A DNA stretch of 64,000 bases, taken from Virgisporangium aliadipatigenens. Lineage in GTDB: Bacteria; Actinomycetota; Actinomycetes; Mycobacteriales; Micromonosporaceae. Of this stretch, positions 52,609-63,557 are shown piece after piece. The notes under the pieces were generated by a model that was not told where the DNA came from, made no database searches, and was given only the letters and a program-made list of their open reading frames with translations. The first letter of the stretch is position 1. Every line of letters begins with the position of its first letter. Both the position numbers and the translations under genes were made by a program. Location: assembly GCF_016863615.1 (NCBI RefSeq), contig NZ_BOPF01000004.1, positions 124,001 to 188,000 on the forward strand. Reading direction: 5' to 3'.

Positions 52609-52677
52609 GATCGTGACTTTTTACGGAAAACCGCCGCGAGACGACACTTTTTCGTAAAAGGTGACGATCATGCCAGG
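52601..52677. promoter_or_regulatory. 30-bp-arm palindrome covering two divergent start codons
   Basis: Arms at 52601-52630 and 52648-52677 match at 26 of 30 positions around a 17-base centre. Both arms run TTTT-CGTAAAA, then ACGATC, then the start codon and CAGG. Each arm therefore carries a mirror-image start region, the rightward one with AAAAGG as ribosome-binding site. No space remains for ordinary promoters outside the palindrome, so they must lie in it. It may be a shared operator or a cruciform. Confidence 0.6.
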
Positions 52678-53491
52678 AGATGGCGGGCGGTTACTGGTCA
52701 TCGGGGGAGCGGAGCAGCTCAATCCGGGGCGGGAGACCATCCTGCAGCGGTTCGTCTCCCTCGCAGGGGGCGCCGAGGCGCGGATCGCGGTCATCGCGAC
52801 GGCCACCGCCGACCCGGCCGCGCGGGAGGCGGAGTACCGCGAGGTGTTCCTGCGGCTGGGCGCCGGCGAGGTGGGGCCGGTGCGGCTGAGCACCCGCGAG
52901 GAGGCCAACGCCGACGAGGCCGTCGCGCGGCTCGCCACCGTCAGCGGCGTCTTCTTCACCGGCGGGGACCAGCGGCGCATCACGAACATCCTGGGCGGCT
53001 CCCGGGTCGACTGCCTGCTGCACGCCCGGCTGGGCCGCTCCGACGGCGGCATCGTCCTGGCCGGCACGAGCGCCGGAGCGGCCATGATGTCCGGCACGAT
53101 GATCGTCGGCGGTTCGGACTCGGACGGGCGCGTCGCGGCGGCCTGCGTGCGCACCGGACCCGGCCTGGAGTTCCTGCCCGGGGTGCTGATCGACATGCAC
53201 TTCGCCGAGCGCGGACGCCTGAACCGCCTGCTCAGCGCCATCGCCATGTACCCGCACGAGCTGGGGCTCGGCATCGACGAGGACACCGCCATCGAGGTGC
53301 ACGGCGACCGGTTCGAGGTGCTGGGCAGCGGCGCGGTGACGGTGATCGACGCGGGCCGCGCCACCCATCTCGACACGCCGGCCGAGGGCGAGGGCCCGAT
53401 CGCGCTGTGCGGGGTGCAGCTGCACGTCCTGCCGGCCGGCTACACGTTCGCGCTGACCGAACGGCGCCCGCAACAGAGCGTGAGGACCTGA
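52670..53491 (+). CDS. cphB: Cyanophycinase
   Basis: A 273-residue S51-family serine peptidase that cleaves the Asp-Arg polymer cyanophycin to beta-Asp-Arg. The nucleophile is S134 in GTSAGAAMM, and FTGGDQRRI is the conserved turn before it. IDMHFAERGRLNRL and GIDEDTAIEV complete the family pattern. ATG at 52670 follows AAAAGG; GTG 52661 is the alternative. Cyanophycin synthetase starts 4 bases after its stop, a common pairing. The cell probably stores nitrogen as cyanophycin. Confidence 0.92.
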   Translation: MPGDGGRLLVIGGAEQLNPGRETILQRFVSLAGGAEARIAVIATATADPAAREAEYREVFLRLGAGEVGPVRLSTREEANADEAVARLATVSGVFFTGGDQRRITNILGGSRVDCLLHARLGRSDGGIVLAGTSAGAAMMSGTMIVGGSDSDGRVAAACVRTGPGLEFLPGVLIDMHFAERGRLNRLLSAIAMYPHELGLGIDEDTAIEVHGDRFEVLGSGAVTVIDAGRATHLDTPAEGEGPIALCGVQLHVLPAGYTFALTERRPQQSVRT

Positions 53492-53494
53492 CCC

Positions 53495-56155
53495 ATGCGC
53501 ATCGAGCACACCCGGCGCCTGCGCGGGCCCAACGTGTACCTCGAACGGCCGGTCATGGTGGCCCGGGTGAACCTCGACGGGTTCACCGAACGGGAGAGCA
53601 CCGACGTGCCCGGCCTGGCCGAACGCCTCCTCGCCACCCTGCCCGGGCTGGCCGAGCACCACTGCGCGAGCGGTGCGCCGGGCGGCTTCGTGCGGCGCCT
53701 GCGCGAGGGCACCTACTTCGGGCACATCGCCGAGCACGTGGCGATCGAGTTGTCGGTGCGCATCGACCGCCGGGTGAACTTCGGCCGGACCGTCTACGCC
53801 GACGCGCCCGGCGTCTACGACGTGATCACCGAGTGCCCGGTCGACGAGCCGCCCGACTCGGAGCTCGCCGAGGATCTGCTCTGCGTCGCGATCGACCTCG
53901 TGACGGGCCGCCAGCGGGAGCCGCGCCTGGACGGGCTCGCCGAGCGGTGGGAGCGGCTGCGCCCGGGGCCGACGACCGACGGCATCGCCCGCGCCGCCCG
54001 CGCCCGCGGCATCCCCGTCGAACGGGTGGGCGCGCTCAGCCTGCTCCGGCTCGGCTACGGGCGGCACCGCCGCCTGGTGTGGGCCGCGATGACGGACGGC
54101 ACGTCGGCCGTGGGCGTCGACATCGCCGGCGACAAGGAGCTGACCCGCCGGATCCTGGGCGACGCGGCGGTGCCCGTTCCCGAGGGAGGAACGGCGCGGA
54201 CGGTGGAGGAGGCGCTCGCGATCCACGCCGCGCTCGGCGGACCCGTGGTCGTCAAGCCCCGGCACGGGCGGCAGGGCAGCCACGTCTACCTGGGGCTGAC
54301 CTCGGCGGAGGCGGTCCGCGCGGCCTTCGACGCGGCGTCCGCCGACGGCGAGGTCGTTCTCGAGCGCCAGCTCACCGGGCGGGACTATCGGGTCCTGGTG
54401 GTCGGTGGTCACGTCATAGCCGCGGCGGAACGGCTTCCCGCGCACGTGGTCGGCGACGGCGACGCGACACTCGCCGAGCTGGTCGAACGCGCCAACGCCG
54501 ACCCCCTGCGCGGCAGCGGACACGGCCGGGCGCTCACCCGGCTGCGGCTTGACGAGGTGGCGGCCGCGCTGCTGGAGCGGCAGGGGCACACGCCGGCCTC
54601 GGTGCCGGCCGCGGGCGAGACCGTCTGGCTGCGCGACAACGCGAACCTTTCCACCGGCGGCACCGCCCGCGACGTCACCGAGCGGCTGCACCCCGACGTG
54701 ATCGACCTGTGCCGGCGAACGGTTGAGATCGTCGGGCTGGACATCGCCGGGATCGACCTGCGCCTGCCGGACGTCGCGGCGCCGCTGCCGCCCTGCGGCA
54801 CCCGGGTCGACGGCGGCGTCATCGAGGTGAACGCCGCACCCGGCCTGCGCATGCACCTGAGTCCCACGGAGGGCCGGCCGCGCGACGTGGCCGGCGCGGT
54901 GGTGGGTGCGCTGTACCCGCCGGGGGCGCCGACGCGCATCCCGACCGTGGCCGTCACCGGCACGAACGGCAAGACGACCGTCGCGCGGCTGATCGCGCAC
55001 CTGCTCGGCTGTTCCGGGCTGCGGGTGGGGCTTACCAGCACCGACGGCGTGTACGTCGGCGGCCGGATGGTGCAGCGCGCCGACGCGACCGGGCCGCGTT
55101 CGGCGCACGTGGTGCTGAGCGACCCGACCGTCGAGGCCGCCGTCCTGGAGACGGCGCGGGGCGGGATCCTGCGGCAGGGCCTCGGCTACGACGTGACCGA
55201 CGTCGGGGTCGTCACCAACCTGGCCGCCGACCACCTGGGCCAGGACGGCGTGCGCACCCTCGACGACCTCGTGCACGTCAAGTCGCTCGTGGCCGAACGG
55301 GTCCGCGACGGCGGCGCGCTCGTCCTCAACGCCGACGACCCGCGGGTGCGCGACCTGATCTCCCGGCCCCGGGTGCGGGCCGCGCACAAGCGCCTGCTGT
55401 GGTTCGGGCTGTCGCCGTCGCCCCTGGTGCACACGCACGTCGAGAACGGCGGCACCGCCTACGTGCTGGTCGACGGGATGCTGGTCGAGCGCACCCGCGG
55501 GCGGGAGACGCCGCTGATCGCCCTGGAACGGCTGCCCGGGTCGTTCGGCGGCGCGGCCCGGTACGCCGCCGCCAACGCCCTCGCCGCCGCTGCCGCCGCC
55601 CGGGGACTGGGCGTGCCCGCCGAACGGGTCGCCGCGGGGCTGGCGGCGTTCGACCCGGCCGACGGCAATCCCGGGCGCGGGCAGCTGTACACGGTGGACG
55701 GTCGATACGTGCTGGTCGACTACGCGCACAACCCGGCCGCGATCGACGCCGTCGGCGAACTGCTGCACGGCGTGTGGGGACCCGAGCGCTGCGTGGCCGC
55801 GGTGACGCTGCCCGGTGACCGCAGCGACGAACTGATCGCGGACTGCGCGCGCGCCGTGGCCGACCGGTTCGGGCGTGTGGTGCTGTACGAGGACACCGAC
55901 CCGCGTGGGCGCGCACCCGGCGAGCTGCCCGCGCTGGTCCGCGACGGCATCGCCGCCCGACGGCCCGACGCGGAGGTGACCGTCCTGCGGACCGTCGAGG
56001 AGGCGCTGCCCGCCGCGCTCGCCGTCGCCCGGGCGGGTGACGTGGTGCTGCTGCTCTACGAGCGGTTCGACGCCGTGGCAGGCTTGCTCGACGCGCTGGA
56101 CGCCGGCCCGGTAGCGGATGTTACCCATTTGTTGGTTTCCCTGCCGGTCCCCTAG
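53495..56155 (+). CDS. cphA: Cyanophycin synthetase
   Basis: An 886-residue two-domain ligase that builds cyanophycin from Asp and Arg with ATP. The N-terminal region (about 1-160) is the CphA-specific domain. The ATP-grasp domain (about 205-460) contains VVVKPRHGRQGSHVYLGL and ends at GGVIEVNAAPGLRMH. The C-terminal Mur-ligase domain carries GTNGKTT at 489-495, VLETARGGILRQGLG and DYAHNPAA. The length is normal. Its ATG lies 4 bases after the cyanophycinase stop, so the two are cotranscribed. Confidence 0.95.
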   Translation: MRIEHTRRLRGPNVYLERPVMVARVNLDGFTERESTDVPGLAERLLATLPGLAEHHCASGAPGGFVRRLREGTYFGHIAEHVAIELSVRIDRRVNFGRTVYADAPGVYDVITECPVDEPPDSELAEDLLCVAIDLVTGRQREPRLDGLAERWERLRPGPTTDGIARAARARGIPVERVGALSLLRLGYGRHRRLVWAAMTDGTSAVGVDIAGDKELTRRILGDAAVPVPEGGTARTVEEALAIHAALGGPVVVKPRHGRQGSHVYLGLTSAEAVRAAFDAASADGEVVLERQLTGRDYRVLVVGGHVIAAAERLPAHVVGDGDATLAELVERANADPLRGSGHGRALTRLRLDEVAAALLERQGHTPASVPAAGETVWLRDNANLSTGGTARDVTERLHPDVIDLCRRTVEIVGLDIAGIDLRLPDVAAPLPPCGTRVDGGVIEVNAAPGLRMHLSPTEGRPRDVAGAVVGALYPPGAPTRIPTVAVTGTNGKTTVARLIAHLLGCSGLRVGLTSTDGVYVGGRMVQRADATGPRSAHVVLSDPTVEAAVLETARGGILRQGLGYDVTDVGVVTNLAADHLGQDGVRTLDDLVHVKSLVAERVRDGGALVLNADDPRVRDLISRPRVRAAHKRLLWFGLSPSPLVHTHVENGGTAYVLVDGMLVERTRGRETPLIALERLPGSFGGAARYAAANALAAAAAARGLGVPAERVAAGLAAFDPADGNPGRGQLYTVDGRYVLVDYAHNPAAIDAVGELLHGVWGPERCVAAVTLPGDRSDELIADCARAVADRFGRVVLYEDTDPRGRAPGELPALVRDGIAARRPDAEVTVLRTVEEALPAALAVARAGDVVLLLYERFDAVAGLLDALDAGPVADVTHLLVSLPVP

Positions 56156-56169
56156 GGAACGGTGCGTCC

Positions 56170-57801
56170 GTGGACGAACCCCGATACCTGGCCGGCCGCT
56201 ACCGGCTGGTCGAACGGCTCGGACAGGGCGGCATGTCCGTCGTTTGGCGCGCGTACGACGAGGTGCTCGGCCGGCTGGTGGCGGTGAAGACGCTCGACCC
56301 CGTCAAGGCGGCCACCGATCCGGCCTCCCGGGAACGGATCCGTGCCGAGGCCCGCGTCGCCGCGCGACTCAGCCACCCGTTCATCACGAACGTCTACGAC
56401 TACGGCGAGTGCACGGCCGGCGGCGGTGAGCCGACCCCGTTCGTCGTGATGGAACTGGTCGAGGGTGAGCCCCTGGACGAACGGCTCGACCGGGAGCGGC
56501 TGTCGCCGGCGTTCGCGGTCGAGGTGTGCGGTCAGGTGGCGGCCGCGCTCGGTGCCGTTCACGCGCGGGGGCTGGTGCACCGCGACGTGAAGCCCGCCAA
56601 CGTCATGCTCACGCCCGACGGCGCCAAGGTGGTCGACTTCGGCATCTCGGCCGTCGCGGGGGACAGCCCCGACACGGTCGACCGCGTCATGGGCACTCCC
56701 GCCTACCTCGCCCCCGAACGCCTCGACGGCGGGCCGGCCGACGCGGCCAGCGACATGTACGCCCTGGGGCTGCTGCTGTACAAGACGCTGACCGGCCGGC
56801 TGCCGTGGGACGCCGACACCACCACGCAGATGCTGGTGGCGCACTGCTACCTCCCGCCGGCGCCGCTGCCGCGGGTGCCCGGACTGCCGCCGGAGGTGGT
56901 CGACCTGGTGCACCGCTGCCTGGCCAAGGAGCCCGCCGACCGCCCGAACGCCGTCGAGGCCGCGCGCGTTCTCGGCGCCGGCATCGCGGCCCGGCTGCCC
57001 GTCGTCGACCCCGTCGCCGCCGCACCGGTGGGCGCCCGGGCCAAGGAGGCGGCGGCGCGGGCCACGCAGGCGGTGGTGCGCGGTTCCCGGGCGCTCGCCA
57101 CCGTCGCGATCAACCGCACGGACGCCACGGGACCGTCGGACAACCGGCCGGCGGCCGGGCGCACGGCGCGCAGCCGTCTTGTGCGCCCGGGCCTCGCCCT
57201 CGCCGCGCTCTGCGCCGCCACGATCACCGTCGTGAGTTGGACCGGCTCCGACGGCGCCACCCCGCCCGCCAACGCCGGCACCGGCGGCTCCGCGGCCGGC
57301 CCCGCCGCGGCGAGCGGCCCCGTCCCGGGCGGGAACGACGGCCGCGTCGCCATGCCGGACCGCGGCTGCCAGGTGCAGTACGCGACCCGTTCGGACACGG
57401 CGGGGCAGTTCGTGGTGGAGCTGACCCTGCGCAACACCGGCACCGAGGCCGTCGCGGAGTGGGAGCTGGAGTTCGCCTACCCGGGGGATCAGCAGGTGCG
57501 GCAGTTGACCGGCGCCGAGTACCACCAGGAGGGTTCCGACGTCCGGCTGCGCGGCGGTGAGCTGCCCGCCGGCGGGACGGCGACGGTGACGCTGACCGGC
57601 ACCTACGCCGCAGCGAACCCGCTGCCGACGGCGTTCACGCTCGGGGACAAGGTGTGCGGCAGCCGGCTCGTCGGCGTCGCGAACAGCCCGACCCAGGGCG
57701 CCCAACGGCCCGCCCAGCAACAGCCGGGGCAGCAGCAGCCCGCCGGCGGACCGCCCGCCCCGAAGAAGAACGGCAAGGATCCGAAGCCCCCGCGACCGTA
57801 G
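56170..57801 (+). CDS. Transmembrane Ser/Thr protein kinase with a CBM2-like outer domain
   Basis: A 543-residue kinase. The kinase domain spans about 9-270: glycine loop LGQGGMSVVW, lysine in VAVKTL, catalytic loop HRDVKPANVML, DFGIS and APE. A cytoplasmic juxtamembrane region follows, then a helix near 340-358 (LALAALCAATITVV). Outside lies a domain of about 100 residues between two cysteines (CQVQYATRSDTAGQF...DKVCG), with NTGTEAVAEWELEFAYPG. This is the layout of a family 2 carbohydrate-binding module. A Gln/Pro-rich tail ends the protein. PASTA repeats, the usual sensor, are absent. GTG at 56170 begins 15 bases after the cphA stop. Confidence 0.88.
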   Translation: MDEPRYLAGRYRLVERLGQGGMSVVWRAYDEVLGRLVAVKTLDPVKAATDPASRERIRAEARVAARLSHPFITNVYDYGECTAGGGEPTPFVVMELVEGEPLDERLDRERLSPAFAVEVCGQVAAALGAVHARGLVHRDVKPANVMLTPDGAKVVDFGISAVAGDSPDTVDRVMGTPAYLAPERLDGGPADAASDMYALGLLLYKTLTGRLPWDADTTTQMLVAHCYLPPAPLPRVPGLPPEVVDLVHRCLAKEPADRPNAVEAARVLGAGIAARLPVVDPVAAAPVGARAKEAAARATQAVVRGSRALATVAINRTDATGPSDNRPAAGRTARSRLVRPGLALAALCAATITVVSWTGSDGATPPANAGTGGSAAGPAAASGPVPGGNDGRVAMPDRGCQVQYATRSDTAGQFVVELTLRNTGTEAVAEWELEFAYPGDQQVRQLTGAEYHQEGSDVRLRGGELPAGGTATVTLTGTYAAANPLPTAFTLGDKVCGSRLVGVANSPTQGAQRPAQQQPGQQQPAGGPPAPKKNGKDPKPPRP

Positions 57802-57852
57802 GCCCTGTCCCGCCGATCACTGCCGACCCGGCCACGGCCACCGGGACAGGGC
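57802..57852 (+). terminator. Stem-loop after the Ser/Thr kinase gene
   Basis: A perfect 10-bp stem (GCCCTGTCCC / GGGACAGGGC) with a 31-base loop starts right at the kinase stop and is followed by TTG. A weak but likely terminator. Confidence 0.5.
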
Positions 57853-57902
57853 TTGACCTGCAAGTTGCGCGGGCATCCGCACGTGCAAGAGCGCGGATTA
57901 GT

Positions 57903-57955
57903 GAAACCTGGGTTTCGCCACTCCCGCGTGGATGGTTCCACCACCTAGGGTGGTG
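57903..57955. promoter_or_regulatory. Two palindromes in the FHA-gene promoter
   Basis: GAAACC TG GGTTTC (57903-57916) and CACCACC TAG GGTGGTG (57939-57955) are both perfect. TAGGGT inside the second resembles a -10 element, which would start the transcript about 20 bases before the GTG at 57979. Confidence 0.4.
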
Positions 57956-57978
57956 CCCACCGACGGGAGGAGGGCACC

Positions 57979-59235
57979 GTGCGCTTCGAGGTCAGCCGGG
58001 TTCTGGACACGATCGAACAGCGACTGACCACGGACGTCACGTTGGCGCAGGCGGTTGTCGACCTCGCCGACGTCGCGCGGTTCCAGGACCTGGACGGCGG
58101 CAAGGGCATCAGCCTGATGCGCATCGGCATGGTGCTCGACGCGTTCGCGCAGTACCTGATGGACGGCCACGCCATGCTGTACCCCGTGGTGGGCCGTGAG
58201 CTGCTCTCCGACGCCGGGTTCACCTCCAAGGAGCGGATGGTGCTCGGCCGCTGGATCGACGACGGCCGGATCGAGGCGACCCCGATGACCGGTGACCGGG
58301 TCGTCGAGATCGCCGACTTCACGGGAATGCCGATCATCGCGTGCCGGGACTACCGGCAGTTCGCCGAGCGGTTCGGCTGGGTGACGACGGAGCCCGAGCG
58401 GCTGCTGCGGCTCTCGCCCCGGCCGGGCAAGGCGGTGCTGACCCCCTGGATCGACGGTGTGCCGATGCCGGCCGAGAGCACGCGGGCGCGGGCGACGTTC
58501 GCCGCGCCGGGGCGCTCCGAGCCGCCGGAGGACGGGCCGCACCGGGTGTTCGCGGCGCGGTCGCGGCAGGCGCAGACGCGCGTGAGCACCCGGGCGATCG
58601 AGCCGGCCGCCAAGCCGAGCGGGCTCGGTGCCTCGTTGCTGGCCCGGCTGTGGAGCTGCCCCGAGATGGACTGCCCCTCGTTCAGCGACTTCCGCCGGAT
58701 CGGGCAGCCGGTGCCGCGCATGCTGAAGGGCGTTGCGGCCTGCCCACGGCACGGGGAGCCGCTGAAGGACGCGGGCGTGCGTCCCGCCGAGTACCCGGTG
58801 GCCGTGGTCATCGACGACGTGGTGCGGCTGCGGTTCCCGGTGACCGGCTCGCGCCCGGTGACGGTGGGGCGTTCGCTCGACGACCCCGAGGACATCTCGC
58901 TCGACCTGTGGCTGCACGAGGCCGCCAGCAACTGGATCTCCAAGCGGCACGCCCGCCTCGACATCGTCGACGGTGCGCTGCGGATCACCGACCACGGAGC
59001 AAACGGCATGCTGGTGTGGCGCCGCAAGGAGGCCGGCGGCGCGGCCGAGAGTTCGCGGCTGTACCCGGGGCGTTCGGCGACGCTGGGGCCGCACGACAGC
59101 GTGGAGCTGTACACCGGCGTCGAGCTGGTGCCGGGCAACCGCCGCGTGGTGGGCGGCGGGCCGGTGGTCGCGTCCGACGTGCGTTCCGTCCTGGTGGACG
59201 CGCCGACCGTCGCCCTCCGCGCGCGCGACAGGTGA
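57979..59235 (+). CDS. FHA-domain protein with a zinc-ribbon-like middle segment
   Basis: A 418-residue protein. Residues 1-150 are helical, with no family I recognise. A cysteine pair set, LWSCPEMDCPSF and AACPRHGEPL (about 232-262), looks like a zinc ribbon. The C-terminal ~120 residues are an FHA domain: VGRSLDDP, SNWISKRHARLDI, DHGANGMLVW. FHA domains bind phosphothreonine, so the kinase just upstream is a likely partner. GTG at 57979 follows GGGAGGAGG. Its stop overlaps the RecQ start (GTGA), so FHA protein and helicase are made together. Confidence 0.8.
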   Translation: MRFEVSRVLDTIEQRLTTDVTLAQAVVDLADVARFQDLDGGKGISLMRIGMVLDAFAQYLMDGHAMLYPVVGRELLSDAGFTSKERMVLGRWIDDGRIEATPMTGDRVVEIADFTGMPIIACRDYRQFAERFGWVTTEPERLLRLSPRPGKAVLTPWIDGVPMPAESTRARATFAAPGRSEPPEDGPHRVFAARSRQAQTRVSTRAIEPAAKPSGLGASLLARLWSCPEMDCPSFSDFRRIGQPVPRMLKGVAACPRHGEPLKDAGVRPAEYPVAVVIDDVVRLRFPVTGSRPVTVGRSLDDPEDISLDLWLHEAASNWISKRHARLDIVDGALRITDHGANGMLVWRRKEAGGAAESSRLYPGRSATLGPHDSVELYTGVELVPGNRRVVGGGPVVASDVRSVLVDAPTVALRARDR

Positions 59236-61301
59236 GAGAGCGCGCCGAGGCGGTCCTCCGGCAGCTGGCCGGCGACCGCGCGCAACTGCGCCCGGACCAG
59301 TGGGTCGCCATCGAGGCGCTCGTCGCGGGGAAGCGGCGGGTGCTCTGCGTCCAGCGCACCGGCTGGGGCAAGTCGGCGGTCTACTTCGTCGCCACCGCGC
59401 TGCTGCGCGCGGCGGGCGCCGGCCCGACCGTGATCGTCTCGCCGCTGCTCGCGCTGATGCGCAACCAGGTCGACGCCGCGGCCCGCGCCGGCATCCGGGC
59501 CCGCACGATCAACAGCGCCAACCTGGAGGAGTGGGACGAGGTCGCGGCAGGAGTCGCCGCCGGGTCCGTCGACGTCCTGCTCATCTCGCCGGAACGCCTC
59601 AACAACCCCGATTTCCGCGACAACGTGCTGCCGAAGCTGGCCGGCACCACGGGACTGCTCGTCGTCGACGAGGCGCACTGCGTCTCCGACTGGGGCCACG
59701 ACTTCCGGCCGGACTACCGGCGGCTGCGCACGTTCCTGGCCGACCTGCCGCCGGGCACGCCGGTGCTGGCCACCACGGCCACCGCCAACGAACGGGTCAC
59801 CGCCGACGTCGCCGAGCAGTTGGGCGACGCGCTGGTGCTGCGCGGTTCGCTCGACCGGGAGTCGTTGCGCCTGGGCGCGCTGCGGCTGCCGACACCCGCC
59901 CACCGGCTCGCATGGCTCGCGGATCACCTGGCGGCGCTGCCCGGTTCGGGGATCATCTACACGCTGACCGTCGCCGGTGCGGCCGACACCGCAGCTTTCC
60001 TCACCGCGCAGGGCTTTCCGGTGACTGCCTACAGTGGACAGTCCGACGACGCCGAACGCCGTGCCGCCGAGCGGGATCTCCTGGACAACCGCATCAAGGC
60101 GCTGGTCGCCACGTCGGCGCTCGGCATGGGGTTCGACAAGCCGGATCTCGGGTTCGTGGTGCACCTGGGTGCGCCGTCCTCGCCGATCGCCTACTACCAG
60201 CAGGTGGGACGCGCCGGCCGGGCGGTGGAACGCGCGGACGTGCTGCTGCTGCCGGGCAGCGAGGACGAGGCCATCTGGCGGTACTTCGCGTCGCTGGCGT
60301 TCCCGCCGGAGGAGCAGGTGCGCGCGGTGCTCGACGCGCTGCTGGACAGCGACCGTCCACTGTCGACACCGGCCCTGGAGGCAAAGGTCGACCTGCGCCG
60401 CGGCCGCCTCGAACTGATGCTGAAGGTGCTCGATGTCGACGGCGCGGTGCGCCGCGTGCGGGGCGGCTGGACGGCGACCGGCGCGCCCTGGCGGCACGAC
60501 GCCGAGCGCTACGAACGCATCGCCGCCGCCCGCACCGCAGAGCAGGCCGCGATGCGCGAGTATCCACAGGAGACGGTGGACTGCCGGATGGCTTTTCTAC
60601 GGCGCTGCTTGGACGATCCGGGCGCTGTCGCATGTGGACGGTGCGACGCGTGCGCCGGCCCCTGGTACCCGACGGGCGTGTCCGACGAGGCGCTGCGCGT
60701 CGCGCAACGGCACCTCGGGCGCACCGGCGTCGACATCGCGCCGCGCAAGATGTGGCCCACCGGGCTGCCGGCCGTCGGGGTGCCGCTGTCCGGGAAGATC
60801 CCGCCGGGTGAGCAGGCGCTGCCCGGCCGTGCCCTGGGCCGGCTCAGCGACCTCGGCTGGGGGCAGCGGCTGCGGCAGGCCGTGGCCGTCGATTCGCCCG
60901 TTCCCGAGGAGGTGGTGAAGGGTGTGGTGGAAGCCCTCGCCGCCTGGGCCAAGGGTGACGACCCGTGGCCGGCGCGGCCCGTGGGGGTCGTGACGATCGC
61001 GTCGCGGTCGCGGTCGGCGCTGGTCCGCTCGCTGGGCGAACGCATCGCGGCGGTCGGCCGCCTCCCGCTGCTCGGCGAGGTCGAGACGGTCGGGCCGGCG
61101 GTTCCGGCGACCAACGGCGCCCAGCGCGTCCGACTCCTGCACGACGCCCTCCTCGCGCCGCCGCTGCCCGACCTCGACGGCCCGGTGCTGCTCGTGGACG
61201 ACTTCGTCGACACCGGCTGGACGATGGCCCTCGCCGCGCGGGCGCTGCGTCTCGCGGGTGCGCCGGGGGTGCTTCCCTTCACGCTCGCCACGGTCACCTG
61301 A
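59232..61301 (+). CDS. RecQ-type DNA helicase with a phosphoribosyltransferase-like C-terminus
   Basis: A 689-residue SF2 helicase. Walker A is QRTGWGKSAV near 44-53, DEAH box VVDEAHCVSDWGHDFRPDY near 145-163, and motif VI QQVGRAGR. A RecQ-type zinc site is present (RRCLDDPGAVACGRCDAC, about 457-475). The HRDC domain is replaced by a C-terminal tail of about 120 residues with VLLVDDFVDTGWTMALA near 650-666, the PRPP loop of type I phosphoribosyltransferases. The start overlaps the FHA gene stop. Unwinding of DNA is secure; the purpose of the tail is not. Confidence 0.88.
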   Translation: MRERAEAVLRQLAGDRAQLRPDQWVAIEALVAGKRRVLCVQRTGWGKSAVYFVATALLRAAGAGPTVIVSPLLALMRNQVDAAARAGIRARTINSANLEEWDEVAAGVAAGSVDVLLISPERLNNPDFRDNVLPKLAGTTGLLVVDEAHCVSDWGHDFRPDYRRLRTFLADLPPGTPVLATTATANERVTADVAEQLGDALVLRGSLDRESLRLGALRLPTPAHRLAWLADHLAALPGSGIIYTLTVAGAADTAAFLTAQGFPVTAYSGQSDDAERRAAERDLLDNRIKALVATSALGMGFDKPDLGFVVHLGAPSSPIAYYQQVGRAGRAVERADVLLLPGSEDEAIWRYFASLAFPPEEQVRAVLDALLDSDRPLSTPALEAKVDLRRGRLELMLKVLDVDGAVRRVRGGWTATGAPWRHDAERYERIAAARTAEQAAMREYPQETVDCRMAFLRRCLDDPGAVACGRCDACAGPWYPTGVSDEALRVAQRHLGRTGVDIAPRKMWPTGLPAVGVPLSGKIPPGEQALPGRALGRLSDLGWGQRLRQAVAVDSPVPEEVVKGVVEALAAWAKGDDPWPARPVGVVTIASRSRSALVRSLGERIAAVGRLPLLGEVETVGPAVPATNGAQRVRLLHDALLAPPLPDLDGPVLLVDDFVDTGWTMALAARALRLAGAPGVLPFTLATVT

Positions 61302-61302
61302 G

Positions 61303-61308
61303 TATCGT
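61303..61308 (+). promoter_or_regulatory. Putative -10 element of a leaderless promoter for the HMA gene
   Basis: TATCGT lies six bases before the GTG at 61315, directly after the helicase stop, so the small gene may be independently expressed. Confidence 0.45.
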
Positions 61309-61314
61309 GAACCC

Positions 61315-61533
61315 GTGTCCACGACTGCGACGTACACCGTGACGGGGATGACCTGCGGGCACTGCGCGTCCGCGGTGACCGAGGAGCTGACCCGGCTGCC
61401 CGGGGTGCACGACGTGCGGGTGGAGGTCGCCACCGGCGTCGTGACCGTGCAGAGCGGCGGGCCGCTCCCGATCGACGAGGTGCGCACCGCCATCGATGAA
61501 GCCGGATACGCGCTGGTCGAGACCGGTGCCTGA
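61315..61533 (+). CDS. Heavy-metal-associated (CopZ-like) protein
   Basis: A 72-residue HMA domain. GMTCGHCASAVTEEL supplies the metal-binding C14 and C17, and the fold is complete. Such proteins carry Cu(I) to P-type ATPases or sensors. No CopA or CsoR gene is next to it; the neighbour is a His-rich membrane protein overlapping by 8 bases. Copper is the likely metal but was not shown. Confidence 0.88.
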   Translation: MSTTATYTVTGMTCGHCASAVTEELTRLPGVHDVRVEVATGVVTVQSGGPLPIDEVRTAIDEAGYALVETGA

Positions 61534-62482
61534 GACCGCCGCACCGCCGCGGCCGGCGGCGGCCCGCGCGCCGGGCCTGTTCGACTCGGCGGCCAAGCGC
61601 GGTGCGATCTTCGCGGTCGCTGTGGTGCTCGCGTTGCTGGCGGGATATTCGATCGGCAAGGTGTCGGTGCCCGCCCCCGACTCGGGCGACCCCGTGGTCG
61701 GCGTCCCCGCCGGTGGGAGCCGGCTGCCCGGGGCCCAGGGCCAGCAGCCGGCCGCCGGGCACTCGCACGGCCCCGAGGACGCGGCCGCCGCCGGGCTCTC
61801 GGCCACCGTCGGTCAGTACACGCTCGTCCCGGACACCACGACCTTTCCCGTGGGAACGGCGCAGCCGATGCGCTTCGCCGTGCAGGGCCCGTACGGCCCG
61901 GTCCTGCGCTACGAGACCGTGCACGACAAGAAGTTGCACCTGATCGTGGTGCGCGCCGACCTCAGCGGCTTCCAGCACCTGCACCCGGAGCTGGGCACCG
62001 ACGGGTACTGGACGGTGCCGCTGACCCTCGGGGCGCCCGGCAGCTACCGCATGTACGCCGACTTCACCATGTCGGAGAACAGCGGCCGCCAGCTCGCGCT
62101 CGTGCTCGGCGTGCAGCTGACGGCGGCGGGGGCGTTCGCGCCCGAACCGCTGCCGGGGCCGGCGACCGCGGCCACCGTCGAGGACCTGTCCGTCACGCTC
62201 ACCGGCGCGCCCAAGATCGGCAGCGCCGCACCGATGACGGCCCGGGTGACGAAGGGCGGTGCGCCGGCGCAGCTGGAGCGGTATCTGGGGGCGTTCGGGC
62301 ACCTGGTCGTGGTGCGCGAGTCGGACCTCGGCTACCTGCACGTCCACCCGGACGAGCAGCTCGTCGACAACGGCGTGCGCTTCTGGGTGTCGGCGCCGGG
62401 GCCGGGGCGCTACCGGGCGTTCTTCGACTTCTCCACCGGCGGGGTGGTGCGCACGGCGGCGTTCACGGTGCAGGTGGCGTGA
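61526..62482 (+). CDS. His-rich membrane-anchored protein of a metal-handling pair
   Basis: A 318-residue protein with one transmembrane helix at about 26-46 and an extracellular part. Histidine clusters AGHSHGPED, FQHLHPELG and LGYLHVHPDEQ recur in what look like two related beta-rich repeats. I do not recognise a named family. Overlap with the HMA gene and metal-suited residues point to copper binding or delivery outside the cell. GTG at 61526 lies in the HMA gene; ATG 61496 is also in frame. The last 20 bases overlap the convergent methyltransferase gene. Confidence 0.7.
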   Translation: MPETAAPPRPAAARAPGLFDSAAKRGAIFAVAVVLALLAGYSIGKVSVPAPDSGDPVVGVPAGGSRLPGAQGQQPAAGHSHGPEDAAAAGLSATVGQYTLVPDTTTFPVGTAQPMRFAVQGPYGPVLRYETVHDKKLHLIVVRADLSGFQHLHPELGTDGYWTVPLTLGAPGSYRMYADFTMSENSGRQLALVLGVQLTAAGAFAPEPLPGPATAATVEDLSVTLTGAPKIGSAAPMTARVTKGGAPAQLERYLGAFGHLVVVRESDLGYLHVHPDEQLVDNGVRFWVSAPGPGRYRAFFDFSTGGVVRTAAFTVQVA

Positions 62483-63557
62483 GCAGCGTCTCCAGGTAGG
62501 GCGTGACGGCCCACTCTGCGGCGAGGTCCCCGGTCGTCGCGGTCCCCGCGTAGGTCGCCTTGATCAGCGCGTTGCGGGGAGTGTGCGCCGAGTCGATGAA
62601 CTCCACCACCTCCACGCGGTAGCCGTGCCGGCCCAGGATCTCGGCGCGCAGCGCGTCCGTCAGGACGTCGGCGAAGCGTTCGCGCAGGATGCCGTGCCGG
62701 GTGAGCGGGCCGGGGCGGTTGCGCAGCTGGGTCGCCACGTCGTGGTGGCAGCAGGGGGCGGCGAGGATCCAGCGGGCGTTCCACTCGACGGCCCGCGCGA
62801 GGGCGTCGTCGGTGGCCGTGTCGCAGGCGTGCAGGGCGAGGACCAGGTCGGGTTCCGGTTCGGGCCGGACCGACGCGATGCTCGCCGCGGTGAAGCGCAG
62901 GTTGTCCCAGCCCAACTTCTGTGCGAGGGCGGTGTTGCGGTCGCGCTGGTCCTCCCGTACGTCCACGCCGGTGACCGTGACGGCCGGGTTTCTTTCGCTC
63001 AGGTACCGGTACGCCGCGAACGTCAGGTACGCGTTGCCGCAGCCCAGGTCCACCACGTGCGCGGGCCGGTCGACGGTCGCGTCCAGCGCCCGCAGGAACG
63101 CGTCCACCTGCCGGCGCTTGGCCGCGTTGCCGCCGATCACGTCGAACAGCGGGTCGTCCGGCGGGATCAGATGTTCCTTCGGCCGGTCGTGCACACCCGC
63201 CGCCGGATCCCGCGCCACCGCCGAACGGTGCACCTGCGCCTCGCCGCGCTTGGTGACCCGCAGCTGCACCGTCTCGTCGGCGGTCTCCACGTGCCAGTTG
63301 CCGAACGGCTCGGCCAGCAGTTCGTCCACTGTGGACAGGTACGCCCCGTCGAGGTTGCGCACGGTCGGCCGGACGCCGTCGGAGGTGGTGAGCTGGATGC
63401 GCCGCTGCCCCCTGAGCGCGACGGGCTTCAGCTCGGCGCGCGCCACGGCGGGCACCGCGTTGCGCCGCCGCCCGGAGGCCACCGCCCGCACCAGCTTCTC
63501 CTGATCCAGCAGCAGCGTCCGAAGCCGATCGAGCGCATCGGAGAGCGGTTCAGGCAC
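62463..63557 (-). CDS. SAM-dependent methyltransferase (Methyltransf_32-like)
   Basis: A 364-residue enzyme with an N-terminal ~140-residue domain and a class I SAM fold. VVDLGCGNAYLTFAAYRYL is motif I, VTGVDVREDQ the ribose-binding acid, and LALHACDTATDDALA with LAAPCCHHDVATQL define the Methyltransf_32 group, related to RNA- or glutathione-associated methyltransferases. The target is unknown. ATG at 63557 lies just past the hydrolase stop, so both are in one leftward unit. Confidence 0.82.
   Translation of the reverse strand: MPEPLSDALDRLRTLLLDQEKLVRAVASGRRRNAVPAVARAELKPVALRGQRRIQLTTSDGVRPTVRNLDGAYLSTVDELLAEPFGNWHVETADETVQLRVTKRGEAQVHRSAVARDPAAGVHDRPKEHLIPPDDPLFDVIGGNAAKRRQVDAFLRALDATVDRPAHVVDLGCGNAYLTFAAYRYLSERNPAVTVTGVDVREDQRDRNTALAQKLGWDNLRFTAASIASVRPEPEPDLVLALHACDTATDDALARAVEWNARWILAAPCCHHDVATQLRNRPGPLTRHGILRERFADVLTDALRAEILGRHGYRVEVVEFIDSAHTPRNALIKATYAGTATTGDLAAEWAVTPYLETLLTPPAP

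Follow-up and report, generated by a model that had tools for sequence, protein, structure and literature searches.

The 64,000-nucleotide stretch of Virgisporangium aliadipatigenens DNA analysed here (the window; contig NZ_BOPF01000004.1, positions 124,001 to 188,000) holds a gene for an FHA-domain protein whose stop codon overlaps the start of rqlH, the gene for a RecQ-type helicase with a phosphoribosyltransferase (PRTase) tail. We propose that the FHA protein may bind RqlH and regulate it as a phospho-switched adaptor. We give this whole reading a probability of roughly 0.37; it is plausible, and about as likely as the two genes being ordinary co-expressed neighbours. What is new here is the FHA partner, not the helicase, and the FHA protein defines a family with a predicted PIN-like N-terminal domain.

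The FHA gene overlaps rqlH

The two genes lie in the 10.3-Mb genome of a member of the Micromonosporaceae:

57979-59235, plus strand: FHA protein gene, 418 amino acids (aa), GTG start
59232-61301, plus strand: RqlH (PsyrT) helicase-PRTase gene, 689 aa, GTG start
59232-59235, plus strand: GTGA overlap of 4 bases between the FHA stop and the rqlH start

A preliminary description of this DNA had reported an FHA gene coupled through GTGA to a RecQ-type helicase with a phosphoribosyl pyrophosphate (PRPP) loop, and we recovered both frames as it gave them. Their third-position GC (0.95 for the FHA gene and 0.91 for the helicase gene) is normal for genes of a GC-rich genome. With starts as called in our analysis, the overlap is present in all three same-genus genomes, as GTGA in the window and in V. 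aurantiacum and as TGATG in V. ochraceum. Because it recurs in both of the other genomes, a chance origin is unlikely.

The helicase is RqlH and carries a PRTase fold

The helicase product contains the following features:

59280-60275, plus strand: RecQ-type superfamily 2 (SF2) helicase core, residues 17-348, from profile matches
60582-60653, plus strand: zinc-type cysteine cluster C451, C468, C471 and C474
60852-61298, plus strand: PRTase fold, residues 541-689, from predicted structure
61185-61223, plus strand: PRPP loop VLLVDDFVDTGWT, residues 652-664, a sequence motif

The helicase belongs to the known RqlH/PsyrT family, and this identity is secure: the PADLOC PsyrT model (PDLC03928) matches it end to end (711.7 bits over residues 3-687), which rules out a new helicase-PRTase fusion. 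Pfam recognizes the DEAD (75.5 bits) and Helicase_C (57.5 bits) domains, and the GWGKS (Walker A), DEAH and QQVGRAGR (motif VI) motifs are all intact. The protein scores 260 bits against the NCBIfam recQ equivalog, whose cut-off of 640 it does not reach, and 18.5 bits against RecQ_Zn_bind, under the cut-off of 25; the cysteine cluster is common to all three aligned RqlH proteins. An RqlH from a cyanobacterial (Nostoc) plasmid is 47% identical to the window helicase and has a gene annotated as DprA directly behind it; an Arthrobacter relative (59% identity) has no DprA-type neighbour within its 4-kb flanks.

The Pfam PRTase model PF00156 scores 18.9 bits on the tail, below its cut-off of 26.3. 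We therefore turn to the predicted structure, which covers residues 478-689 folded with 33 relatives and is of high confidence (mean predicted local distance difference test score (pLDDT) 93.3; predicted template modelling score (pTM) 0.88). In VIA-align, ComF ranks highest (Z 13.6; 5.8 A over 172 aligned residues) and ShosT next (Z 10.3), ahead of many purine, orotate and PRPP enzymes, and Foldseek ranks PyrR proteins best (E 1.5e-4), with modest TM-scores near 0.4. Of the PRPP-loop residues, L653, L654, V655, D656, W663 and T664 each show at least 95% conservation across 34 aligned rows. The tail thus has a well-predicted PRTase fold, nearest to ComF and ShosT. The predicted fold rules out a PRPP loop that arose as a chance motif without a PRTase core, and the PRTase-like tail of the preliminary description, which was to fall if that core were lacking, is borne out at the level of the model.

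RqlH without a neighbouring RqlI

RqlH, a RecQ-like helicase with a PRTase domain, is a family in print, and the passages of that paper used here report that in Escherichia coli F11 the PRTase domain of RqlH is genotoxic unless the DprA-like protein RqlI is present, and that RqlI likely binds this domain (PMC4670107). The same passages state that, among the Gram-positives examined that have an rqlH or rqlI gene, 99.6% have RqlH alone; there, Russell and Mulvey leave open why Gram-positives tolerate RqlH without RqlI, and suggest that other proteins could restrain it (PMC4670107). They also speculate that RqlH opens DNA and that the PRTase acts on bases or nucleotides nearby (PMC4670107).

The local gene order of the window contains no DprA-like antidote gene next to rqlH. 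A PF02481 search of the whole genome found one DprA, and a PsyrA search found the same gene (74 bits) together with marginal matches at 21.4 and 20.1 bits. As these searches give DprA and two marginal matches only, we rejected the idea of an RqlI hidden elsewhere in the genome.

This absence raises the idea that the FHA protein stands in for RqlI, acting as an antidote on the PRTase that is released by phosphorylation, in a toxin-antitoxin or anti-phage module. The suggestion of Russell and Mulvey would fit such a role, as would the precedent of ShosTA, PsyrTA and RqlHI, systems whose PRTase-linked toxins have DprA-like antidotes (PMC9122126); according to the part of a review that we drew on, ShosTA is anti-phage and ShosT alters the nucleotide pool (PMC12593503). 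Against this, RqlH is a stable core gene, the candidate antidote is missing from most genomes of the family, the surroundings are unlike a defence island (both described below), and the antidote gene follows rqlH in the known systems, whereas here the partner precedes it. We consider this stand-in role quite unlikely. Also unlikely, in our view, is the broader proposition that actinobacteria keeping RqlH without RqlI can hold it with a phosphorylation-switched antidote, namely a PIN-like, zinc-site and FHA-containing protein that is co-translated with RqlH and answers to a receptor kinase. If it is true, PRTase toxins could be controlled without a DprA-like protein, and cell-surface kinase sensing would be linked to DNA processing.

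The FHA protein appears to read phosphothreonine

Four regions of the FHA protein are conserved or structurally recognizable:

58030-58455, plus strand: N-terminal domain, residues 18-159, PIN/NYN-like by predicted fold
58657-58752, plus strand: zinc-ribbon-like site C227, C232, C255 and H258
58783-59142, plus strand: FHA fold, residues 269-388, with G297-R298, S321xxH324 and N342-G343, from model and alignment
59197-59217, plus strand: C-terminal tail D407-A-P-T410-V-A-L413 with a candidate phosphothreonine, from alignment

PF00498 matches the protein at 23.6 bits (cut-off 20.7); across the family, the Pfam FHA model matches only 20 of 45 aligned members at E ≤ 1. The structural model, built from 45 sequences, has a mean pLDDT of 85.7 and a pTM of 0.85, with low confidence for residues 167-207. 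Its FHA fold finds matches up to Z 14.0, including PDB entries 6i2r (Z 12.2) and 4qcj (Z 12.0). The phosphopeptide-binding residues are intact in the window protein and largely conserved in the family: of 45 aligned rows, G297 is kept in 45, R298 in 43, S321 in 39, H324 in 44 and N342-G343 in 45. By these residues, the protein appears to be a phosphothreonine reader of kinase marks.

The zinc-ribbon-like site is invariant in all 45 aligned members, and the tail is conserved almost as strictly. APT is present in 51 of 52 FHA relatives, the sole miss being a frame that ends early (L111). Counted from the tail threonine, position -3 is D or E in 50 of 51, and position +3 holds one of L, M, I and F in 49 of 51. 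This [DE]APTxx-hydrophobic pattern resembles actinobacterial kinase sites. T410 is a candidate target of a Ser/Thr kinase and, once phosphorylated, a candidate ligand for the FHA domain.

The N-terminal domain is PIN-like in predicted structure, matching the PIN domains of ZC3H12C, MCPIP1 and PRORP2 at Z 11.2-11.4 (7ndk, Z 11.4 over 141 aligned residues at 3.7 A; 3v33, Z 11.3; 5ft9, Z 11.2). These values come from a VIA list of re-ranked Foldseek matches, some of whose ranges extend past the domain, and the domain was folded within the whole protein. Sequence comparison of the domain with PDB, Pfam and NYN gave no match supporting PIN, and a Pfam scan of 36 members yielded no convincing match (best E 0.0083). 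Because hhalign against 15 NYN sequences returned a probability of 0.3%, the PIN-like call is one of predicted fold.

The fold raises the alternative of an FHA protein with nuclease activity of its own, working as a PIN/NYN-type RNase that phosphothreonine directs to its target. We placed candidate acids, which we presume to occupy catalytic positions, by eye from strand order rather than by residue alignment. D28, at the end of strand 1, is D in 36 of 36 aligned proteins, and the window protein has D28, D106 and D124. An aspartate stands at position 106 in 29 of the 36 and at position 124 in 11, the two same-genus FHA proteins having N and S there. Only 8 of the 36, counting the window protein, carry acids at all three positions. 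This pattern, together with the missing sequence match, makes a nuclease improbable, and the family as a whole probably does not use the predicted domain as one, with a small probability left for an active form in this species.

The FHA protein family is apparently undescribed, judging from the Pfam scan and the open literature searched. There we found nothing joining RecQ with an FHA domain in actinobacteria, nothing joining RecQ, 'phosphoribosyltransferase domain' and helicase, and, among the matches listed, no paper treating both RqlH and FHA.

A receptor kinase upstream is probably a separate unit

A kinase gene precedes the FHA gene, at a spacing of 177 bases:

56170-57801, plus strand: PknB-type receptor Ser/Thr kinase
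57802-57812 and 57842-57852, plus strand: arms of an 11-bp perfect inverted repeat, a hairpin with no T run, found by eye and with its arms checked
57944-57952, plus strand: CCTAGGGTG, a promoter -10-like element
57965-57974, plus strand: GGGAGGAGGG, probable ribosome-binding site of the FHA gene

The upstream kinase that the preliminary description proposed as the source of phosphorylation is real (Pkinase 159.6 bits, HRD and DFG intact), with a single hydrophobic span at residues 337-355; its place in a common unit with the FHA and helicase genes is what our data call into question. The region from 57790 to 57870 folds at -40.6 kcal/mol (z -3.9). A terminator scan of 57700-61400 gave two terminator-like sites; the hairpin at 57802-57852, having no T run, is not one of them. 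Downstream, CCTAGGGTG and then GGGAGGAG stand ahead of the FHA start in all three same-genus genomes, CCTAGGGTG at the same place in each; it has one match in the window against 0.16 expected. A sigma-70 scan across 57700-61400 gave no promoter, which leaves this conservation as the basis for reading the element as one. The strong hairpin and the conserved promoter-like element between the two genes suggest that the FHA gene and rqlH probably form their own transcription unit and the kinase a separate one, so the kinase may be a member of the system as a candidate only.

The best PADLOC match of the kinase is PD-T4-6 (288.8 bits), which we take as generic kinase similarity. As a separate observation, the kinase has a cellulose-binding-like CBM_2 outer domain (47.4 bits) and full-length matches in other genomes, making it a candidate carbohydrate-sensing kinase.

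The FHA partner is accessory to a core helicase

To place the pair in context, we compared its distribution and gene order among relatives. RqlH matches strongly (E ≤ 1e-120) in 344 of the 354 genomes from the family; it is a core gene retained by vertical descent. For the FHA protein, 30 of the 354 give E ≤ 1e-45; at E ≤ 1e-3 it matches in 32 of 61 relatives, a count that includes one (G040) of the 24 from other families of the order. Its N-terminal domain alone matches in 2 of 396 genomes across the phylum, both Micromonosporaceae. The FHA family is thus found almost only in the Micromonosporaceae. A tree of 52 complete FHA relatives, with a midpoint root only, splits into 18 members, including the window protein, and 34 others (support 100/99); the larger side includes a second FHA copy of the window genome itself (C31:33822-34847). 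Hereafter, this FHA group means 20 of the 30 genomes with E ≤ 1e-45, made up of the 18 in the tree and of G184 and G355, two genomes in which the gene runs past a contig end and whose placement follows genus and identity; the count misses any member scoring below that threshold.

The preliminary description envisaged a conserved kinase-FHA-RecQ order. Kinase, FHA and RqlH genes are co-directional in that order in 7 of the 20 genomes, in two genus-level groups: three are Virgisporangium-type and four belong to group g23 (three Planosporangium and one metagenome-assembled genome titled Dactylosporangium). The order therefore recurs without being general across the family. In group g23, a gene of 132-171 aa sits between the FHA and RqlH genes; by eye it encodes a small membrane-like protein, present in all four genomes (for example L084:7746-8189 and L123:9726-10217). 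Elsewhere in the group, the FHA and RqlH genes share a contig at about 4 to 19 kb in 3 of 20 genomes, and another 8 of 20 have them far apart or on separate contigs, or give no RqlH match; some of these assemblies are fragmentary.

A kinase lies directly 5' of the FHA gene in 11 of the 20 genomes. In two more, both related, the protein in that place resembles a kinase but is degenerate, with HGN for HRD and DHG for DFG, and is a probable pseudokinase (L082:10434-11195 and L128:1377-2339). Three Dactylosporangium genomes have no kinase between cyanophycin synthetase and the FHA gene, and the order cyanophycin synthetase, kinase, FHA recurs at two Dactylosporangium loci (L162 and L164). A named scan for FHA relatives gave 197 coding stretches; among the best 80 loci, 8 have RqlH in flanks of up to 5 kb and 11 have a similar kinase, one of them on the opposite strand, at an FHA gene from the other side of the tree.

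Several of these comparisons weigh against a dedicated FHA-RqlH partnership. With RqlH in 344 of 354 family genomes and this FHA group in merely 20, an FHA adaptor is dispensable for RqlH in general, and the partner is accessory. In the other half of the FHA family, which lies mostly away from RqlH, the FHA residues and the tail are the same, so neither feature is specific to RqlH. Within the group itself, the FHA and RqlH genes are convergent in 2 of 20 genomes (0.1 kb between them in D. roseum and 1 kb in D. vinaceum). The single-contig genome G025 carries both genes about 0.7 Mb apart. The kinase is no more exclusive: a similar kinase (E ≤ 1e-60), in some cases full length, occurs in 23 of 25 genomes searched, also where the FHA group is absent, so this kinase type is not specific to the FHA-RqlH setting. 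In G005 and G033 such a kinase and RqlH are separated by about 10-12 kb that contain no FHA gene.

These two belong to 17 RqlH regions fetched from other genomes, in none of which we found an FHA gene; 11 of the 17 retain at least one of c17 and c13, the neighbours downstream of RqlH. The kinase may be an old neighbour of RqlH. Such findings speak for a simple alternative, in which RqlH works alone and the FHA protein belongs to the pathway of a different kinase. The overlap would then do no more than secure co-expression, or would be a by-product of ancestral adjacency. What this account explains less well is that the start/stop overlap is maintained throughout the sampled genus, and that co-direction is maintained in a second genus-level group despite a small gene in between. 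Weighing both sides, we see ordinary neighbours as a live account, tentative to the same degree as our own.

Other members of the FHA family show further associations. One relative from the other side of the tree lies divergently beside RqlH in G023 (L088:8287-11825), a second and different FHA-RqlH adjacency. At another locus from that side (L092) the neighbours look metabolic by eye, and several related loci share them. In two genomes an FHA relative directly follows a gene that by eye is GGDEF/EAL-like (L130:5526-8189 and L132:1619-4273), which hints at a cyclic di-GMP link in that branch.

The surroundings offer little support for defence

Five named or numbered genes flank the kinase, FHA and rqlH genes at close range:

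52661-53491, plus strand: cyanophycinase
53495-56155, plus strand: cyanophycin synthetase
about 61315-61533, plus strand: HMA-domain (CopZ-like, metal chaperone-like) protein
61496-62482, plus strand: unnamed protein
62463-63557, opposite strand to the kinase, FHA and rqlH genes: methyltransferase

The cyanophycinase and cyanophycin synthetase genes (52661-56155) are directly 5' of the kinase. The preliminary description saw in this region a kinase-controlled DNA repair or phage-defence unit with nucleotides as its signal. The kinase-FHA-RqlH order in two genus-level groups is in keeping with such a unit, and the helicase family is listed in a defence library as PsyrT. Of nine flanking genes scanned against PADLOC defence models, seven had no match at all; the methyltransferase matched mad2 at 35 bits, and a DEAD helicase matched generic helicase models at up to 71.7 bits. 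The named flanking genes comprise the cyanophycin genes, a transporter, the metal chaperone-like gene and the methyltransferase. The surroundings are thus unlike a defence island and give little contextual support for defence; nor does RqlH have a patchy distribution. We saw no nucleotide-signal enzyme in the unit and nothing pointing to nucleotides as a signal, and the conserved promoter-like element sets the FHA gene and rqlH apart from the kinase. A kinase-controlled repair or defence unit signalling through nucleotides is accordingly a highly improbable account of the locus.

On mobile elements, 29 plasmid records match RqlH at E ≤ 1e-40, of which 8 cover at least 80% of the query, and 18 phage records match at E ≤ 1e-30, none covering 80%. 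The plasmid collection contained no FHA relative at E ≤ 1e-5.

A proposed phospho-switched adaptor for RqlH

In the mechanism that we favour, the RqlH PRTase would probably act on nucleotides or bases near the DNA that the helicase opens and, if unrestrained, could damage DNA. Being translated together with RqlH in this genus, the FHA adaptor would be placed to meet it at once, and would most likely bind and regulate it. A Ser/Thr kinase, possibly the receptor kinase encoded just upstream, would phosphorylate T410 in the adaptor tail. Much as in GarA, the FHA domain would then dock onto a phosphorylated tail, either its own or that of a partner, and this docking would change the adaptor's grip on RqlH, shifting it between bound and free. 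The direction of that shift, like the binding and the phosphorylation, is put forward here as a prediction.

An FHA gene that is translated with rqlH, encodes a predicted reader of phosphorylation and adjoins a kinase gene is a testable candidate for an RqlH regulator, at least in Virgisporangium and Planosporangium.

Comparison with known systems

The window helicase shares its architecture, a RecQ-type helicase followed by a PRTase tail, with RqlH of Mycobacterium smegmatis (MSMEG_5935) and with the RqlHI system of E. coli F11. The PRPP-loop DxVD of E. coli RqlH, which is needed for toxicity, reads DIVD in print and DFVD here, a correspondence matched by motif rather than by aligning the proteins. 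The partners differ: here an FHA gene overlaps rqlH upstream, whereas in RqlHI a DprA-like gene lies downstream. Similarly, the helicase matches the PsyrT model of PsyrTA from end to end, but no PsyrA stands beside it. The window tail shares the PRTase fold of ShosT, and the antidote of ShosTA is DprA-like, not an FHA protein; to our knowledge, ShosT is without the helicase part.

The FHA protein itself is best compared with the actinobacterial FHA switches GarA and OdhI, with which it has in common the FHA fold and a kinase-site-like threonine outside the FHA domain. In GarA, according to the part of the source drawn on here, an ETTS motif outside the FHA domain is phosphorylated (PMC12321487). 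The window protein differs from both switches in having its threonine in a C-terminal tail, and in carrying two further conserved regions before the FHA domain.

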